A stretch of DNA of 64,000 nucleotides, taken from NCBI GenBank assembly GCA_019636755.1, contig JAHBWZ010000002.1, positions 1-64,000 of the forward strand, in the 5' to 3' direction. Of the stretch, positions 14,677-31,060 are shown piece by piece (position 1 is the first letter of the stretch; each line of letters begins with the position of its first letter). Both the position numbers and the translations under genes were made by a program. The notes below the pieces were generated by a model. That model saw only the letters and a program-made list of their open reading frames with translations, ran no database searches and had not been told where the DNA came from. This stretch comes from Phycisphaeraceae bacterium. GTDB taxonomy: Bacteria; Planctomycetota; Phycisphaerae; Phycisphaerales; SM1A02.

Positions 14677-14702
14677 GCAGGGGGGCTGAAGCGCCCCCCT
14701 GC
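14677..14702. repeat. G6/C6 hairpin element
   Basis: GCAGGGGGGC and GCCCCCCTGC form perfect 10-bp arms around TGAAGC. The element, with its flanking CAACCCCCC and GGATGGATGATCC, recurs at 19373-19398, and an inverted related copy sits at 19583-19607. It lies 82 bp after the SpoIID-like gene. It could be a bidirectional terminator or a REP/MITE-like element. Confidence 0.6.
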
Positions 14703-15000
14703 AACCCCCCCGGCGGATGGATGATCCCGGGTGCGCCTTGTCGCGCGCCACGCGTCGGTCGCGGACGCGCCGCGCCGGACGCGCGATCGTTCCAGAGATC
14801 CGACACGCCGAAGGCGTGAACGTCTCCATCAGGTTGTTGAACATGCCCGGCACACCTGCCGACCGTGGCTCCTTCGGGGCCGAAGTCGCGCGCATCCCGG
14901 CGCGAGAGCAACCGGGCGCGCCGCCCTCGCAAGGGGGTCAAGGTAGGCACCAGCCCCCATCGGCGTGCGCTCCACGCAGGACCCGGATGCGCAAGTCCGC

Positions 15001-15150
15001 GCCATCGACATCAGATCACCGACATCGCGATCGACGACACCCTCCACGGGGAGGCCCTCAGCCTGCACCGTTCTTCAGCACGCTTCCGGCGGTGTCGCTG
15101 TGCGCCAGGACGCCGCGGCTCTGCGCGTCCAGGCCTACGGCCTGTCGAGT
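15001..15150. repeat. Dispersed intergenic repeat with conserved hairpin
   Basis: This stretch matches 19044-19196 in the same orientation, by eye about 75 percent. It contains CAGGCC-TAC-GGCCTG (15130-15144), a perfect stem; in the other copy only the loop differs (TTC). The minus strand holds a partly conserved frame in both copies, but with no start or domain that supports a gene. The gap 14595-15291 holds this repeat, the hairpin at 14677 and nothing else I can identify. Confidence 0.6.
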
Positions 15151-15291
15151 CCCGCGTGCTCGTCAGCGCCAGAGCGCGCACAGGCCCCGAGGCGCCCGGG
15201 ATGTCCCGGCGGCGGAGCGTGCCGTCCGCCGGGACATCGACAGGCCATGGGTCGATGACATCATGCAGCGCTCGCCGCGGCGGCGTGCGGG

Positions 15292-16932
15292 CTACGGCGT
15301 GCCGTTGATGATCATCGCCTCGATGCACGCTTCCAGTCTGGGGAGATTCTCAGGCGCGAGGCCGATCTCGTTGATGCAATCCCAGATCGAGCCCAGCGTG
15401 ACGTGCGGGCATGACGATGGATCGGTCCACCAGGAGAGCAGGATGAGGAGATCCGGGAAGCCCACGGTGCCGCTCTCGTCGAGATCCCATGGACAGGGGT
15501 CCGGTGACTCGGGACACGCCCCATACGCGGCCAGGAGGATCAGCAGGTCCTGGAAGTCGACCGCCGAGTTGCAGTCGAAGTCCGCCGGGAGAAACGGGCG
15601 TTCGAACGCGCCCTGGTCCACCGTGCCCGACGTGCAGAGCAGACTCGCCGCCACGCGAGCCAGGAGATCCCGATCCGGCGCCGGCTCCTCGAGGTCATCG
15701 TTGCGGTTGATGTCGTAGTAGTCTGCCACCATCAGGCCCTCGTCACCCGCGTCGATCGACGGAGAGCATGGTTCGAGCCGAAGGTCGCCGACGCTGCGAT
15801 TGACGAACAGCGGGTCGTCGTCGATGTTCCCCGTACCTGACCAGCCGCCCTCGATGTTGGTGCAGGCGACCGTGACTGTCCCGCTGCTGCTGATGTGCTC
15901 CAGTACCTCGTCCGCCAGGTTGCCCCGGACGATCGAGTTGTGCACCACCACCTCGGTCAGGTTGCCCCCGTGGAACACCCCGCCTTCGGCGACGGTCTCT
16001 CCCGGGTCACCGCTGATCGCCTCGTTGTCGACGATGGTGCAGTTGACGAATGTGGCGGTGTCCGCGAGTCCGAGCAGGGCGACCGCACCGCCGAATGCGT
16101 CGTAGGGGATGGTGATCTCGGATGCGACGCATGCGCCTCCGATCGCGCCACCACGTCCTTCGAACCAGGCTTCGTTGTCCCTGAACGTGCACGCGACCAG
16201 GTCCAGCGAGCAGTCGTCCTGGATCGTCGTCACGGGCGAGATCTGTGAGTGCTGGAAGATCGCACCGCCCGTTCCCGGGGAGTTCTCGCAGGTGAATGGA
16301 TCAGGGTGGTCCAGACTCCCGGCGCGGTTGTGCTCGAGCGTGCAGAGCGTCAACGCGGCCGCCGTGCTGGAGAGGAAGACCCCTCCGCCGGCGGCTGCGC
16401 TCGGCAACGTGGGCGTCCCGCTGTGCGGATCCCCATCCCGGCCCGTCGCCCAGCCGTGGCGGATCGTGAGCGCGTCCAGACGGTACCGGACGGTCTGCTG
16501 CTGGAACCCAGCCACACCCATGACCACGTGGAACACCCGGTCCTCCGGATCGCCCGGATCCTGCCCGAACAGCCCGCTCAGGATCGTGGCGTGGTCGGGG
16601 TTGACGTGGTCGCGCTCGGCGATGTCCGTCTCCGTCCCGTTGAAGTTGCCGGCGAGGGTGTAGAGGCCGTTTCCAGTCGGCAACACGAACGAGTCGGTGC
16701 GCTCCGTGCCGGGCGCACCGGGCACGTAGGTGCCCTGGTAGATCCAGATCTCGTCCTCGTCTCCGGCAGCTCCAAGCGCCGCTTCGATCGTCGTCACCGC
16801 GCCAGCCCACGGTCCACTCGCCGGCGGATCCGGGTGGACTCGGATGATGGCGCTCTGCGCCGGATGCGCCGCCGCCAGCAGCGCCAGGGTGCACCCACAG
16901 CCGCCGTGCAGAATGTCACGGATCGTCTTCAT
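15292..16932 (-). CDS. Secreted right-handed beta-helix protein with dockerin-like tail
   Basis: A 546-residue protein starting MKTIRDILHGG, with GGAG 13 nt upstream of ATG 16932. The signal peptide is followed by I-x-V-x-P...AL-A-Gly/Asp-rich turns. The body has repeated beta-helix rungs with GGG, N-C-T and D-N motifs (TFVNCTIVDNEA, LVACTFRDNEAWF), as in pectate-lyase-like or right-handed parallel beta-helix proteins. Near the C-terminus are two EF-hand-like repeats, DFDCNSAVDFQDLLILLAAY and DLDESGTVGFPDLLILLSWW. The family is extracellular and often binds or degrades polysaccharide. No catalytic residues can be assigned, so this may be an adhesin or structural protein. Confidence 0.75.
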   Translation of the reverse strand: MKTIRDILHGGCGCTLALLAAAHPAQSAIIRVHPDPPASGPWAGAVTTIEAALGAAGDEDEIWIYQGTYVPGAPGTERTDSFVLPTGNGLYTLAGNFNGTETDIAERDHVNPDHATILSGLFGQDPGDPEDRVFHVVMGVAGFQQQTVRYRLDALTIRHGWATGRDGDPHSGTPTLPSAAAGGGVFLSSTAAALTLCTLEHNRAGSLDHPDPFTCENSPGTGGAIFQHSQISPVTTIQDDCSLDLVACTFRDNEAWFEGRGGAIGGACVASEITIPYDAFGGAVALLGLADTATFVNCTIVDNEAISGDPGETVAEGGVFHGGNLTEVVVHNSIVRGNLADEVLEHISSSGTVTVACTNIEGGWSGTGNIDDDPLFVNRSVGDLRLEPCSPSIDAGDEGLMVADYYDINRNDDLEEPAPDRDLLARVAASLLCTSGTVDQGAFERPFLPADFDCNSAVDFQDLLILLAAYGACPESPDPCPWDLDESGTVGFPDLLILLSWWTDPSSCPHVTLGSIWDCINEIGLAPENLPRLEACIEAMIINGTP

Positions 16933-17052
16933 CTCGGATGTCTCCGTTGTCTCGAGGTACCGGCAGAGCGATCGCGCCGTCCCGCTTCGACGGGACATCC
17001 CGCGTCACACCGCCTGTCGAATCACGTCACACGGCCACCGGCCAGACACCGA

Positions 17053-18639
17053 CTACGGCGCCCACCAGTGGTCGAAGAGATGCCAGAGGTCCTTGTGGTC
17101 GATCACGTCATCGCCGTTGAAGTCGCCGTGATCACTGCTGCCCCACCGGCTCAGCAGGATCAGCAGGTCCCTGAAGTCCACGCGACAGTCACCGTTGAGA
17201 TCCTCATCCGCCGGCGCCGCCGGGATAAGGTGATAACGCCCATGGTCGCCGATCGAAACAACCTGCCCGTTCTCACTGATCGGCGAAGGCGACCCCAGGT
17301 TGATCGGCATGGGACCGAATGTCGGCGGCGCCATCACCAGGTCACGCAGTCGGCGTGGACCGCCGTTCCGCCAGATCAGCGCATGGGCTCCAGCGCCATT
17401 GAGGTAACTGACATGCCCGACCACATCACCCGAGTCGTTGATCCCGCTCGGGATCACCCTGCGGACCAGGTCCGGCGGCCAGTCCGGCATCAGTTCGCAC
17501 AGATAGCCGCTCGCATCTCCCATCACGCCGATCCCGATTCCACCGTTCGCCACGTCGACCACCCGCGCGACGAACCGACCAGCGTCGTCTGCCCCTGTGA
17601 TCACCGTTGCGGGCCATCCGCCATAGCTGGGGATCTCCGTGATGCGACCGTCGATGACCAGGAACGGGTGCACCGGAAGCGGACTCGGATAGATGCCCAC
17701 ATTCCCGGCGATGGCCCCGGATTCTCCGATTGCGATGCCCTGGCTCCGCGTCCCCGAGAACGCCCCCACGAACAGTTCGAACTGCCCGTCCTTCCAGCGG
17801 AACGCGTGCGGGTGACTCTCCGGGTACGCCGTGTAGAAGAACCCGACGACTGTCCTGTCCTCGGAGATGTCCTGCGCTTCGATGATGATGCCCTGCTCAC
17901 CGTCCACGAACGGCGGATAGATCATCTCGAACTCGTTTGTGTGGATGTTCCAGACCCAACTGAGGTGCCCGAACGCGTCACCCTCGATCGCCACAATCCC
18001 CGTCACCCACCCCGCGTCATTGATCGCGAACGCATCGCTCCACCCCGCTCCCGGCGGCCACGGCGGCGTCACGATGCCACCCGTGCTCGGCCACGCCGCA
18101 GCGCGGCGAGATGTCGCCCCGCCGCACACGAAGAAACCACAGATGTCCCCGTGATTGTTCACCGTGCCGACACCCGTACCGCATCCTCCCATCGTGATCA
18201 CCCGCTCGAAGCGGTAGCACGGCGGATACGGAAGGTCCGCCTCGTGCACGCCGGAGCACGGCCCGACCAGTCCGCCCGCGCCGGCGCCCCCGGACCCCCC
18301 GGGATCCCCGCCACCCCCGGAGTCCTTCGCCCCATCACCGGCCTCGGCGCTCTGCGCCGGACCGATGACACCTGAGAGGAAGAGCGCAACCGCGCCTGCA
18401 AAGAGCACTGCCCGAAGCAGCGCGGCGCGCCCACGCCCAGGACTGCGCCGCGGTCGGCCGACCCCGTCGGCGCTGCTCTGCGCGCGGTCCGCCCGGCGCG
18501 CACTCGACACGTCCCTTGCATCTGCCGCCCCCAAAAGCGCAGCCGGCGCCCCCGACACCACCTCCACCCAACCAGGCGCGCACCGACGCCGCACGCCGCA
18601 CCCGATCCGGCCCGTGTCACCCCGCGCTTTCCATCCCAT
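17053..18639 (-). CDS. Secreted HAF-repeat protein with dockerin-like tail
   Basis: A 528-residue frame. A hydrophobic signal core (LLRAVLFAGAVALFLSG) lies at about 75-91, so the first 70 Arg/Ala-rich residues are probably not translated and the real start lies downstream of ATG 18639. A Gly-rich linker is followed by about 320 residues of repeats in the style of extracellular HAF proteins: GTVNNHGDICGFFV, AFAINDAGWVTGIV, AQDISEDRTVVGFF, IPSGINDSGDVVGHV. Two EF-hand-like units follow (DLNGDCRVDFRDLLILLSRW and DFNGDDVIDHKDLWHLFDHW). HAF repeats form propeller-like folds of unknown ligand. It lies 120 bp upstream of the 15292 gene in the same direction. Confidence 0.7.
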   Translation of the reverse strand: MGWKARGDTGRIGCGVRRRCAPGWVEVVSGAPAALLGAADARDVSSARRADRAQSSADGVGRPRRSPGRGRAALLRAVLFAGAVALFLSGVIGPAQSAEAGDGAKDSGGGGDPGGSGGAGAGGLVGPCSGVHEADLPYPPCYRFERVITMGGCGTGVGTVNNHGDICGFFVCGGATSRRAAAWPSTGGIVTPPWPPGAGWSDAFAINDAGWVTGIVAIEGDAFGHLSWVWNIHTNEFEMIYPPFVDGEQGIIIEAQDISEDRTVVGFFYTAYPESHPHAFRWKDGQFELFVGAFSGTRSQGIAIGESGAIAGNVGIYPSPLPVHPFLVIDGRITEIPSYGGWPATVITGADDAGRFVARVVDVANGGIGIGVMGDASGYLCELMPDWPPDLVRRVIPSGINDSGDVVGHVSYLNGAGAHALIWRNGGPRRLRDLVMAPPTFGPMPINLGSPSPISENGQVVSIGDHGRYHLIPAAPADEDLNGDCRVDFRDLLILLSRWGSSDHGDFNGDDVIDHKDLWHLFDHWWAP

Positions 18640-18695
18640 TGCCGCACTCCCCGGCCCCGTGGGCCGATTCGGCGTACCCCGGGCCCAATACGACA

Positions 18696-18750
18696 GGGCC
18701 CTCGACTGGGCCCTCGACTGGGCCCTCGAGTCGACTCACGACTGGGCCCT
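18696..18750. repeat. 12-bp tandem repeat
   Basis: The unit CTCGACTGGGCC occurs twice perfectly (18701-18724), with partial or diverged units on both sides. It lies about 60 bp upstream of the annotated HAF-gene start. The copy number is too low to assign a function; polymerase slippage could vary it. Confidence 0.7.
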
Positions 18751-18926
18751 CACCCGATCCCGGACGCGGGCCCGGCCCGCATCCCTTCCCCGAATGTCGT
18801 CCGGAGTGGTTCGACCGGACTGTCTCGACCGGAGCGGTCCACCGGACCCCTGACTCTCCAACCACCGCGCCCTGACGTGACATGGGGTGACCGGACGGTC
18901 TGCACTGTACCACGTGACCCGACCCT

Positions 18927-19196
18927 GTCAAGCAGTGGTCATGTCCATGAACACGGCGGTGCACAGACGGTGAGCAAGGAGCCTCACGGATCGACCGTCG
19001 CGCACGAACCACCGTCCCTGTAGAGAGACGTCATGGCAGGTCCGCATCATCGACACCAGATGTTCGACACCACGACCGACGACACGCATCTCGGGCAAAC
19101 CTTCAGCCTGCACTGTTCGTCTGCACGCTTCCGCGGGTGTCGCTGCGCTCCAGGACGCTGCGGCTCCGCGCGTCCAGGCCTTCGGCCTGTCGCGTG
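18927..19196. repeat. Fullest copy of the dispersed intergenic repeat
   Basis: Positions 18927-19048 match 11-135, and 19044-19196 match 15001-15150, so this copy joins two blocks that occur separately elsewhere. It contains CAGGCC-TTC-GGCCTG at 19175-19189, the same stem as the 15130 copy. It lies in a 1.27-kb gap (18640-19906) in which I found no credible gene. The order of blocks suggests a composite element that has decayed in the other places. Confidence 0.65.
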
Positions 19197-19372
19197 CATG
19201 GGGAGCAGCGCTCGACCACGAGGAAGATAGCGGCCGACATCGGCGTGCACGCGTGGACGCTGTGAGAGAGATCGAGCGATCGAGCGCACGCCCGCGCATG
19301 CACGAGTCAGCAACCTTGACGATGCACCCGGGCAGAGCGCCGTGCACGCCCTCGCCCTCTGGACGCGCAAGC

Positions 19373-19398
19373 GCAGGGGGGCTGAAGCGCCCCCCTGC
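19373..19398. repeat. G6/C6 hairpin element, second copy
   Basis: This has the same 10-bp arms and TGAAGC loop as 14677-14702, followed by the same CAACCCCCC and GGATGGATGATCC block. Confidence 0.6.
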
Positions 19399-19582
19399 AA
19401 CCCCCCTCGCGGATGGATGATCCGGGGAACGTCTTGACTCGCAACAAGGCGATCACGGACGCGCCGCTCCCGACGCGCCGTCGGCACCGGTCGTTCTGCG
19501 CGCCACCACGGACCCGATGCGCGCAACCACCACCCCTCGCGCGCCGGCTGACCACAACAATCCGCCTGCGCGCAAGGGGGTT

Positions 19583-19607
19583 GCAGGGGGGCCTCAGCCC
19601 CCCCTGC
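19583..19607. repeat. G6/C6 hairpin element, inverted copy
   Basis: GCAGGGGGGC pairs with GCCCCCCCTGC (one extra C) around CTCA. The flanking GGGGGTTGCAGG on its left is the complement of the TGCAACCCCC found on the right of the other copies, so this copy is inverted. With 19373-19398 it encloses about 185 bp as an inverted pair. Confidence 0.55.
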
Positions 19608-19906
19608 GCTCGCGCACCCGTACGGAACACCACATGATCGTCGAGCCCTGACGTCAATCGCGGTCCTTGAAAGACATCGAGCAAGCGATCACGAGTCAGC
19701 GTCCCTGTCGATACATCCACTCGATTCGTGGCATCGACCCATGCGCGCCGGCGCACCGTGATTCCCGGACATGCCACGTCATCTCGCAGGGTCTCCCGAA
19801 GCCGCATCACCGCACCCGCTTCCGCGCGCCCGGCCCGCCGTCAGGCCGCATCGATCCGTGCAGATCGGATGGTCTGCGGTTGGACCTGGTCCATCGGAGC
19901 CACGCC

Positions 19907-21469
19907 ATGCTGCACCCTCTCATGCCGTCCGACACGCCGACGACCGTGCGCCCCCGCGGGGACCGGACCCGCGCCGGACGATCGGGCGCGGGTCTCGCCG
20001 CGCTCGCGGCGCTGTGTCTTCCCGCCCTGGATGCGGCGGCGGCGGATCTGCATGTGCCGTCGGCCTCGTTCCCGACCATCCAGAGCGCGGTGCAGGCCGC
20101 GCAGCCCGGAGACCGCGTGATCGTCGCCGCGGGAACGTACGCCGAGCGGATCGACATGCAGAACCGCATGATCACGCTCACCGCGCCGTCCGGGCCGCAG
20201 TCGACCACGATCCATGCCGGCGGTATCGGCCCCGTGATCAGCAATCCGGGCACCAACGCCGTCATCCACGGCTTCACGCTGGCGGGCGGACTCGGCGGGT
20301 ACGGCGGCGGCATCGCGATCACCGGCACCAGTCCGTGGGTCGTTGACTGCGTCGTGCTGGACAACCTCGCGACGTTCGGAGGCGGCGTCTCCGTGCGCTC
20401 CGGCGGCGCCCCGATGTTCATCCGATGCCGGTTCTCCGACAACACCGCGAACTTCGGTGGCGGCGTGTACCTCCGGGACGGCTCCACCGGTACGTTCTTC
20501 GACTGCGTCGTGCAGGACAACGTGACGCTCACCGGCACCGGCGCGGGCGTACACGTCAACCTCTCCACGCTGGCGATGCGCTCGTGCGTGATCTACCGCA
20601 ACGACTCGATCACGAAGTCCGGCGGCGGCATCTTCGCCTCGTCCAGCACGACGACGCTGATCGACTGCACGATCTCCACCAACCTGGCGCTGGAGAACGG
20701 CGGCGGTCTCATGACCAGCGCCGGCTCGCTCTCCATGGTGGGATGCATCCTCGAGAACAACCACGCCCAGCAGGGCGGCGGCTGGTACGGGTACGCCACC
20801 GCGGCGCACCTGGTGAGCAGCCTGTTCCGCTGGAACTCCGCGGCGTTCGGCGGCGGCGCATTCCTGCTGGGAGCCCAGCCGCGCCTGACGAACACCACGA
20901 TCGCCGACAACTGGGCCTCCGGATCCGGCGGCGGGCTGCGCGTGGTGACCGCGGCACCGGTCCTCTGCAATGCCATCCTCTGGGGGAACTACCCGGACCA
21001 GGTGAGCCGCGTGCAGGACGGCACGTCGTTCTACTTCTCGTGCATCCAGGGCGGATGGACCGGGGCAGGATCCGGGAACATCTCCGACAATCCGCAGTTC
21101 GTCGATGCGCTCAACGGTGATCACCGCCTGCATGCATCGTCGCCGTGCATCAACGCGGGCGACTCGACCGCCCTGCCCGGCGAACTGGCCGGACTCAGCG
21201 ATCCGCAGTCGCTGTCCGCGCTGGGGCTGGACCTGGCCGGCGAGGCCCGGATCATGGGCAGCGCGATCGATCACGGCGCCTACGAGCTTCCGGACGCGGG
21301 ATGCCGCGCTGACCTCAACGATGACGGCGTGGTGAACTTCCGCGACCTTCTCGCGGTCGTCCGCTCGTTCGGTCCGTGCGACGGGTGCCGGGAGGACCTC
21401 ACCGACGACGGCGTCGTCAGCGTGTGGGACCTCATCGCGCTGCTCGCGGCATGGGGTGCCTGCCCCTGA
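19907..21469 (+). CDS. Secreted right-handed beta-helix protein with dockerin-like tail
   Basis: A 520-residue protein; ATG 19907 is preceded by GGAG. The signal region ends near ALDAAAAD. The body begins HVPSASFPTIQSAVQAAQPG, the typical opening of right-handed beta-helix (pectate-lyase-like) domains in which an IQSAV motif precedes AGTYAE. About twelve rungs with GGG and N-x-A motifs follow (GGGVSV, NTANFGGGVYL, GGGIFAS, GGGLMTS). The tail has two EF-hand-like repeats, DLNDDGVVNFRDLLAVVRSF and DLTDDGVVSVWDLIALLAAW. It is extracellular and perhaps polysaccharide-associated; the catalytic role is undetermined. It is paralogous in architecture to the 15292 gene but on the other strand. Confidence 0.8.
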   Translation: MLHPLMPSDTPTTVRPRGDRTRAGRSGAGLAALAALCLPALDAAAADLHVPSASFPTIQSAVQAAQPGDRVIVAAGTYAERIDMQNRMITLTAPSGPQSTTIHAGGIGPVISNPGTNAVIHGFTLAGGLGGYGGGIAITGTSPWVVDCVVLDNLATFGGGVSVRSGGAPMFIRCRFSDNTANFGGGVYLRDGSTGTFFDCVVQDNVTLTGTGAGVHVNLSTLAMRSCVIYRNDSITKSGGGIFASSSTTTLIDCTISTNLALENGGGLMTSAGSLSMVGCILENNHAQQGGGWYGYATAAHLVSSLFRWNSAAFGGGAFLLGAQPRLTNTTIADNWASGSGGGLRVVTAAPVLCNAILWGNYPDQVSRVQDGTSFYFSCIQGGWTGAGSGNISDNPQFVDALNGDHRLHASSPCINAGDSTALPGELAGLSDPQSLSALGLDLAGEARIMGSAIDHGAYELPDAGCRADLNDDGVVNFRDLLAVVRSFGPCDGCREDLTDDGVVSVWDLIALLAAWGACP

Positions 21470-28531: not shown

Positions 28532-29173
28532 ACGCGGAGAAGGATCCGCGGTCCGGACGCGGGACGCAAGCGGGTGGGAGATGTCCGGCCGTTGACCGGC
28601 ACGGGCACGTCAGGGAATCGCCTTGCGCCGTACGACGACTGCCCGGTGGTCACATCGCCAGAGAGGACAGGGAGCCGTCCGCCCGCTCCCGCCGTCGCCA
28701 CGAACATGGACGGACGGTCGCCCAAGATGGACGACCGCCGCGCTTCGACCGGCTGCTTCTGCGGGACGCCCGTCACGTTCATGATCGCGATGACTTCGAA
28801 CGCGCCGATCACCTCCGATGCGCAGCCGCCGCAGCGGAAAGAGACCGGCGCATCGCCGCCACCCTGCCGGCCAGGTGTTCACCATCCTCCAGGAACGCAA
28901 GCCCGACCAGCGCAAGCCATCCGTCCGGCACCGTCAGCGCGCGGCCAGCCTCTGTCCGTGCCATGCATCCCGCGACGTCCGCCCGTCCGGCTCATCCGGG
29001 CCGGGCAGGCGCGCCGCAACCGCAGCGCATCCGCGCGCCCAGAGGACGGCCCCCAAGGGAAGCAGTCCCAGGGAGGATGTGCGACTCAGCGTTCAACTGC
29101 GGGGCAGACACATGCTTGGTCCATGCTGTCGGCACTCTGCCGGCCGGCACCTGAGTCCGCCCTTCGGGGACCA
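28532..29173. other. Gap between the oxidoreductase and the CRISPR array
   Basis: No gene with recognisable domain or credible start was found on either strand. The longest frames are Arg/Pro-rich shadows. It lies at the distal (oldest) end of the array and could hold decayed array or neighbouring DNA. TTCAACTGC at about 29092 matches part of the repeat, but over only 9 bp. Confidence 0.5.
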
Positions 29174-30946
29174 CCGCGAGCCGCACCCGAAGGAGCTCAC
29201 TTCGGCACTTCATCTTGAGTTCGCGGATGGACGGAGGAGTCGTGTTTCAACTGCTCCCGAAGGAGCTCACTTCGGCACTCGATGCCGAGGCAGAAGCAAC
29301 GCACCTGATCAGTTTCAACTGCTCCCGAAGGAGCTCACTTCGGCACTCGATGCCGAGGCAGAAGCAACGCACCTGATCAGTTTCAACTGCTCCCGAAGGA
29401 GCTCACTTCGGCACTCCGAGCAACCATGCTTCGGACAACATCCTGTTTCCACTGCTCCCGAAGGAGCTCACTTCGGCACGCGTCTTTCGATGTTCAAAAA
29501 CGCAGGCGTCCGGGAGTTTCAACTGCTCCCGAAGGAGCTCACTTCGGCACCCGTACGGTCCGCTGGTATCACACCGGCCTCGGTTTCAACTGCTCCCGAA
29601 GGAGCTCACTTCGGCACTGTGGCATAAGCCCGATGAAGTCTACCCAGTCCTAGTTTCAACTGCTCCCGAAGGAGCTCACTTCGGCACCCGGCAGAAAGGG
29701 ACGACATGTCCAATAACACGCAGTTTCAACTGCTCCCGAAGGAGCTCACTTCGGCACGCGCGGATGAAGTCGCTCGCATCCTCTCCCTGGCTGTTTCAAC
29801 TGCTCCCGAAGGAGCTCACTTCGGCACTCGCCAAGCGGTTGCCCCAGCACCGCCGTCGTGCAGCTGTTTCAACTGCTCCCGAAGGAGCTCACTTCGGCAC
29901 CAGATGGTCTCCACCATCAAAGCCGCGCTGAAGCGGTTTCAACTGCTCCCGAAGGAGCTCACTTCGGCACCAGACGGGGACGGCCATGGGTTTTATCAAC
30001 CCGTTTCAACTGCTCCCGAAGGAGCTCACTTCGGCACGCGCTCAGCGCTGAGCCCTTCGGTCACATCGGAATCGTTTCAACTGCTCCCGAAGGAGCTCAC
30101 TTCGGCACCGAGGGAAGTCAAGTTGGGGGATGGCAGCGAAGCAGTTTCAACTGCTCCCGAAGGAGCTCACTTCGGCACTCGCGTCGGCGGACACCCCCAT
30201 CAAGGCGCTGCAAACGGTTTCAACTGCTCCCGAAGGAGCTCACTTCGGCACAACTGGATCGATCGATCCGGTTACGACATTCTGTCTGTTTCAACTGCTC
30301 CCGAAGGAGCTCACTTCGGCACGAACCCAGTGTTCAGTAACACGGTGTGGTGGGGAGGTTTCAACTGCTCCCGAAGGAGCTCACTTCGGCACGTCGGAAC
30401 AGAGTGACATCTGTTTCGACGACGACCCGTTTCAACTGCTCCCGAAGGAGCTCACTTCGGCACGCGCTGAAGCGCGTCGGCTACGCGGCGAGCGACCGTT
30501 TCAACTGCTCCCGAAGGAGCTCACTTCGGCACCATGGACGACGAGAAGGTTCATTCCGACGCACCTGAGTTTCAACTGCTCCCGAAGGAGCTCACTTCGG
30601 CACGTGGTGGCAGACATGCTGGTGGTGGTATCCCCCAGGTTTCAACTGCTCCCGAAGGAGCTCACTGCGGCACTGTCAACAAGAGCGAGCAGCCGGAGCA
30701 GCGGCGTTTCAACTGCTCCCGAAGGAGCTCACTTCGGCACGGGAGATCGCCTCCGGCCTGGAAGTCGCGTTCCGAGAGTTTCAACTGCTCCCGAAGGAGC
30801 TCACTTCGGCACAGCGTCCAGCGCGACCTGTACCTGGCGCGTGCGGTTTCAACTGCTCCCGAAGGAGCTCACTTCGGCACTCTGCAGTCATTACAATTTG
30901 CCTTTTGAACTGTTTCAACTGCTCCCGAAGGAGCTCACTTCGGCAC
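29174..30946 (-). CRISPR. Type III-associated CRISPR array, 26 repeats, 25 spacers
   Basis: 25 full 35-nt repeats run from 29244 to 30946; on the plus strand they begin GTTTCAACTGCTCCCGAAGG and end ACTTCGGCAC. A degenerate terminal repeat lies at 29174-29208, with only its last 23 nt conserved. Spacers are 30-38 nt. On the minus strand the repeat ends GTTGAAAC, the usual 8-nt crRNA 5' handle, and the stem CCGAAG/CTTCGG sits upstream of it, suiting Cas6 cleavage. Handle and degenerate end together place the leader at the right (30947). Variant repeats: 29445-29479 (A to C at position 6) and 30639-30673 (T to G at position 29). The spacers at 29279-29311 and 29347-29379 are identical. Confidence 0.97.
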
Positions 30947-31060
30947 CGCCGTCTCTTCTGAAGTTCGCGCCGGATCTTCGCGCAAGTCTCGCCCACAGTG
31001 CCGTTTCTGTGCCTGAGAAGCCCCTCGGGAGGTGTCGGTATCGCGCCATAGTACAGCACT
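30947..31060 (-). promoter_or_regulatory. Predicted CRISPR leader with -10 TACTAT
   Basis: This sequence adjoins the rightmost repeat, on the side away from the degenerate repeat. On the minus strand TGTACTATGG has a candidate -10 TACTAT at 31048-31053, which would start the precursor about 95 nt before the first repeat. The rest of the 431-bp gap to 31377 should also hold the promoter of the divergent effector operon, which I could not locate. Confidence 0.5.

Follow-up and report, generated by a model that had tools for sequence, protein, structure and literature searches.

According to our analysis, the repeated blocks that flank two secreted-protein genes in this DNA are the conserved arms of a secreted-protein operon module that occurs in multiple copies, has recombined, and has the layout A1-P-Y-X-3' block-A2, a reading to which we assign a probability of about 0.8. 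The window, i.e., the whole stretch of 64,000 nucleotides analyzed here, corresponds to the initial 64 kb of contig C12, and the genome searched comprises 4.11 Mb in 20 contigs and is 99% complete. The initial annotation rightly recognized a repeat family, but it missed that the repeat, here named A, is part of a duplicated operon with shuffled arms and cores, and it also missed a hairpin repeat, B, which is much more numerous and directly adjoins A.

The proposal that blocks in direct orientation surround both genes was borne out, since positions 14991-15150 and 19036-19195 align over 160 bp with 82% identity at a spacing of 4045 bp. The similarity reported between 18927-19048 and 11-135 was likewise recovered, with 75% identity over 120 bp (18926-19045 against 11-128; E = 4e-14). 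A genome-wide search with the 170-bp block returned 10 matches at E ≤ 0.01, which confirms that the family is dispersed and extends beyond these copies. The window and C12 start at the same base, and the A matches on C4 (76990-77129) and C20 also sit at contig ends, as expected of dispersed repeats, which tend to break assemblies. The block located 3' of X (A2; 14991-15160, plus strand) contains the stem CAGGCC-TAC-GGCCTG at 15130-15144, while the block located 5' of P (A1; approximately 19036-19195, plus strand, taken to 19046 in the module order) contains CAGGCC-TTC-GGCCTG at 19175-19189. Two genomic copies lack the 84-bp core of A delimited by CTTCAGCCTG/CTTCGGCCTG, an absence that fits a deletion between these short direct repeats.

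The A copies do bracket two secreted-protein genes, as had been annotated, and the bracketed unit was found to be duplicated, set in tandem, and recombined. In transcription order, on the minus strand, the module consists of A1 (19195-19046), P, Y, X, the 3' block, and A2. At least seven copies of P-Y-X are present in the genome, two of them in tandem, and three types of core can be distinguished. Type I comprises M0 (this window), M1 (C14:23.2-27.3k), and M2 (C12:559.9-563.8k); type II comprises M3 (C12:555.0-559.2k), which is in tandem with M2, and M4 (C4:24.6-27.4k), where X aligns in traces only; type III comprises M5 (C12:498.1-501.8k) and M6 (C12:133-136.4k). Over 3.1 kb, M6 and M5 share 92% identity, but M6 is split into short frames, so it is probably a decayed copy, or else the frames are broken by sequencing errors. 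The neighborhood of M6 (C12:130-136k) includes a short open reading frame (ORF) for an RHS-core fragment (TIGR03696). The ends of further modules were detected at the start of C12 and at the ends of C4 and C14, together with an A fragment at the end of C20. The one at the start of C12 (11-334, minus strand) is the upstream end of a module cut by the contig start, with P-like sequence at 11-128 and M2-type upstream DNA at 24-334, the latter being 89.7% identical to the upstream region of M2 over 311 bp.

P (18640-19045, minus strand; 405 bp) includes the upstream region, promoter, and leader, and it is represented by partial copies and by seven long ones, which are 83 to 90% identical to the P of the window. 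The predicted promoter, TTGACA-16 bp-TACAGT (18904-18931, minus strand), matches the consensus, and its hexamers are invariant in all seven of the P copies compared. In the leader, a 12-bp repeat, TCGAGGGCCCAG (18688-18760), varies in copy number among modules and could affect expression. The 3' block (15161-15334, minus strand) covers the last ~14 codons of X, the stop codon, and downstream DNA with a palindrome; its seven long copies, including that of M5, align with 85 to 100% identity. The 13-bp palindrome GATGTCCCGGCGG/CCGCCGGGACATC at 15200-15238, behind X, has a folding z-score of -2.75 and lacks a T-run, and despite this lack it is a better candidate terminator than the hairpin of A. 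Apart from one 39-bp hit, P and A had no match in 60 relatives, none of them congeneric, which suggests that, within the relatives compared, the dispersed family is confined to its own lineage.

Y (17053-18639, minus strand) encodes a secreted HAF-repeat protein with a dockerin-like C terminus, and it scores above the cut-off of the HAF-repeat family (TIGR02913; E = 1.2e-9). Four other full-length copies were found in the genome, with protein identities of 86, 81, 56, and 52%, and a search of the genome collection revealed no relative. Along the initial ~88 codons of the ORF as called, Ka/Ks is ~1 or above in most pairs, as in noncoding DNA, which places the true start further inside the ORF, whereas the mature part, with Ka/Ks values of 0.26 to 0.34 within a type, is under purifying selection. 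X (15292-16998, minus strand) encodes a secreted, beta-helix-like protein, also with a dockerin-like C terminus, whose real start is probably the methionine of MKTIRDIL. Its full-length paralogs are 67 to 86% identical in type I and 43 to 51% identical in type II, and Ka/Ks between M0 and M1 is 0.32. X is 36% identical to the neighboring beta-helix protein encoded at 19667-21469 (Beta_helix), and X copies of different types have the C-terminal tail CIEAMIINGTP in common. Dockerin-like C-terminal segments occur at ~100 places in the genome, which by this feature would seem to belong to a Phycisphaera-type planctomycete; with respect to GC-type dockerin-anchored proteins (NF041540), the ends found here are dockerin-like, with matches below the curated cut-offs.

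The arms and the cores differ markedly in their conservation. P and the 3' arms are 81 to 96% identical across modules, while the DNA of mature Y is only 59 to 60% identical between types I and II and that of type III is unalignable. M5 is 87% identical to M0 in P, 93% in A1, and 95% in the 3' block, with a core that has no DNA match to M0. Similarly, M2 and M3 are 99.6% identical over the 270 bp that lead up to the signal peptide (18376-18639), compared with 59% in mature Y, and their silent divergence rises from 0 in the former to 0.96 in the latter. Part of the arm conservation may reflect regulatory constraint.

Several observations point to recombination between the modules. In P, 22 informative sites separate {M0, M2, M3} from {M1, M4, M5, M6}, a split that crosses the core types, and the histories of arm and core therefore conflict. 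By maximum chi-square, the switch point between the 5' arm with the signal peptide and the mature Y core was placed at 18375-18353 (minus strand): in a five-copy alignment, 32 sites upstream of it support M1+M4 and 1 supports M3+M4, while downstream the corresponding counts are 2 and 330. The maximum chi-square at the Y signal peptide was 330, against 27 as the best of 1000 permutations; this test and the PHI test were our own simple versions of the published ones. Since the 5'-arm conflict by itself hinges on M3, which could be misassembled, the test was rerun without M3 and inside the cores. In these reruns, PHI was 0.259 against a permuted mean of 0.601 and 0.297 against one of 0.668 (p = 0.0005, the smallest value possible with 2000 permutations). 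The Y and X cores are mosaics of one another, with the sites shared by M0 and M1, by M1 and M2, and by M0 and M2 lying in separate tracts; in Y, for example, M0+M1 sites are found at 18303-18098, M1+M2 sites at 17990-17885, M0+M2 sites at 17736-17443, and M1+M2 sites again at 17368-17129. The arm/core conflict and the mosaic cores together show that the modules have exchanged segments, on evidence from one genome whose contigs end in repeats, where some joins could be misassembled. An empty site, i.e., a single fused A, was not found.

We propose that duplicated modules traded segments by ordinary homologous recombination, in the form of gene conversion and unequal crossing-over, which would probably be RecA-dependent and in which the shared flanks would act as homology arms. 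As an outcome, a single promoter/secretion-signal unit and a single 3' end would have become joined to different exported proteins. Unequal crossing-over between the direct A copies that flank it could also add or remove an entire operon, and the tandem M3-M2 pair points this way. A more far-reaching version, in which a dedicated and still active shuffling system uses the A repeats, P, and the 3' arms as exchange sites and repeatedly re-pairs one promoter/secretion-signal unit with changing dockerin-tagged exported proteins, is a tentative suggestion that we consider rather doubtful.

Invariant promoter hexamers and purifying selection on the mature proteins would also be expected if the operon had simply undergone segmental duplication and divergence, its flanks being conserved only as regulatory DNA. 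However, such a history needs a single tree for arms and cores, and the trees conflict strongly and the cores are mosaic; it also predicts the opposite of what is seen here, namely, noncoding arms that are more alike than selected coding DNA, and we deem it unlikely. That the mosaic was created by the assembly, with short reads joined across repeats, is quite improbable: the switches in many internal tracts are between sequences 12 to 15% different, which assemblers seldom confuse, and the conflict remains after M3 is removed, although the start of C12 and the ends of C4, C20, and C14 do lie in or beside module sequence and C15, C8, and C13 start within B. We regard it as very improbable that A is a mobile element of the MITE or REP-like kind, independently inserted near genes. 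Its 84-bp core has near-identical 10-bp ends and is cleanly absent from two copies, and the C20 copy begins abruptly at the core edge, which would suit such an element; yet every copy readable on both sides stands in a module context, the missing core fits the deletion described above, and the sole Y1/RAYT-like gene of the genome (C17:82123) has no such flank.

The least probable of the explanations considered is that the CAGGCC/GGCCTG hairpin of A is itself a selected RNA or DNA structure, such as a regulatory RNA, a terminator, or a recombination site. The initial annotation had described the stem as unchanged while the loop varies and had seen in this a sign of selection on structure; the description holds for the two copies of the window (TAC/TTC) but not across the nine genomic copies. 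Two of these show a G-U change (CAGGTC), one of the two with an additional A-A mismatch (GGCCAG), another has two stem mismatches (TGCCGG), and a further one has an inserted G. The stem is thus broken by mismatch or insertion in 3/9 copies, and no compensatory double change was found among the nine. For the 101-nt A-core stretches of the two window copies, the folding z-scores are -0.28 and -2.55; the second value would favor selection, as would the finding that conservation within A is highest in its right part, while the first speaks against it. Hairpins with a 6-bp stem and a loop of 3 to 8 nt are in any case common in such GC-rich DNA, with 353 in the window (70% GC) compared to 252 to 293 in first-order random sequence, and an Rfam search of the window matched only a tRNA and assigned the A hairpin to no family. 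Selection on the structure was therefore not substantiated, and the hairpin is not itself special and is without a demonstrated role.

The second repeat, B, is a family unrelated to A. The B element next to A (19190-19660) is a unit of ~410 bp with the hairpin H1 at 19373-19405 (plus strand) and H2 around 19583 in the opposite orientation; another H1 hairpin of the family (GCAGGGGGG...CCCCCCTGCAACCCCC; 14677-14709, plus strand) adjoins the operon module and is not part of it. The element gave 180 BLAST matches, spread over most contigs, and the H1 pattern with an N{6,9} loop had 88 exact matches in the genome, a number that rises to 102 B hairpins (53 forward, 49 reverse) when up to three mismatches are allowed. 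The hairpins alternate in orientation at ~200 bp, and an array on C1 contains 3.5 copies with a period of 410. The exact hairpin pattern is absent from 80 relatives. In the genome collection, the B hairpin pattern was detected in four stretches, two of which are on one contig of the Phycisphaeraceae MAG ACE_PLA18 (JAHBXK010000004.1), where the likeness to B stops at the hairpin and the surrounding DNA is unrelated; one copy of this B-like hairpin, GCAGGGGGGCCTGAGCGGCCCCCCTGCAACCCCC, lies a short distance past what looks like a stop codon. The genome has a single Y1_Tnp gene, around C17:82123-82302, which is RAYT-like and contains an HFHL motif. Short CATGGACACACCC/GTGTGGCCATGAC repeats, different from the B hairpin, occur on both sides of it, and no B was found in the 3.2 kb around it. 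A further repeat array of the window, at 29169-30979, is CRISPR-like, with 26 repeats of ~35 nt (GTTTCAACTGCTCCCGAAGGAGCTCACTTCGGCAC) at a period of 65 to 73 bp and with two identical repeat-spacer units side by side.

REPs arranged in alternating orientation are known as BIMEs (PMC2817692), and REPs of the CGTC class have a stem of 8 to 9 bp, a loop of 4 to 5, and a tail beside the CGTC tag (PMC3733652). With about 100 hairpins, alternating orientation, and tandem arrays, B resembles REP/BIME sequences (PMC2817692, PMC3733652), but its spacers are longer, at ~170 bp, no GTAG/CGTC tag accompanies the stem in the copies read, and the cognate RAYT flanked by the repeat was not found. The A hairpin was also considered as a REP and discarded: a REP is a palindrome of 20 to 40 bp that is dispersed in high copy irrespective of genes, whereas A has ~10 copies, the readable ones all in module contexts; CGTC precedes its stem, but the stem is 6 bp and the loop 3 nt; and mobilization by a RAYT was rejected, the sole Y1/RAYT-like gene having no A flank.

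Among described systems, the Helicobacter pylori bab outer-membrane-protein genes come closest in behavior. The paralogs babA/babB/babC are almost identical at their ends, diverge in the middle, and form chimeras by intragenomic gene conversion (PMC4552749); the exchange is reported to involve the 5' region, ~60 to 240 bp from the start codon (PMC4552749). Here, too, several paralogs in one genome combine conserved ends with a divergent middle, and intragenomic gene conversion is visible as mosaicism by maximum chi-square and PHI. Unlike in bab, an operon of two genes forms the unit here, its noncoding arms are unusually long, direct repeats accompany it, and the genome is planctomycete-like; its proteins are secreted and dockerin-like and are not known adhesins. 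Integron gene cassettes depend on attC sites and an integrase; the modules are whole operons with their own promoter-like sequence. Literature searches covering repeats in planctomycetes, dockerins in Phycisphaerae, and paralogs whose intergenic DNA is conserved yielded no description of the family.

At the level of the assembly, the module and repeat family accounts for the positions of its breaks. More broadly, the modules clearly illustrate, for a phylum that has received little study, how noncoding arms evolve together while the exported proteins they enclose diverge, the exchange point being sharply defined at the signal peptide. Should exchange be ongoing, a free-living bacterium could use a single promoter for a varying set of exported proteins, and active shuffling, if true, would bring to a free-living planctomycete what is known from antigenic-variation families.
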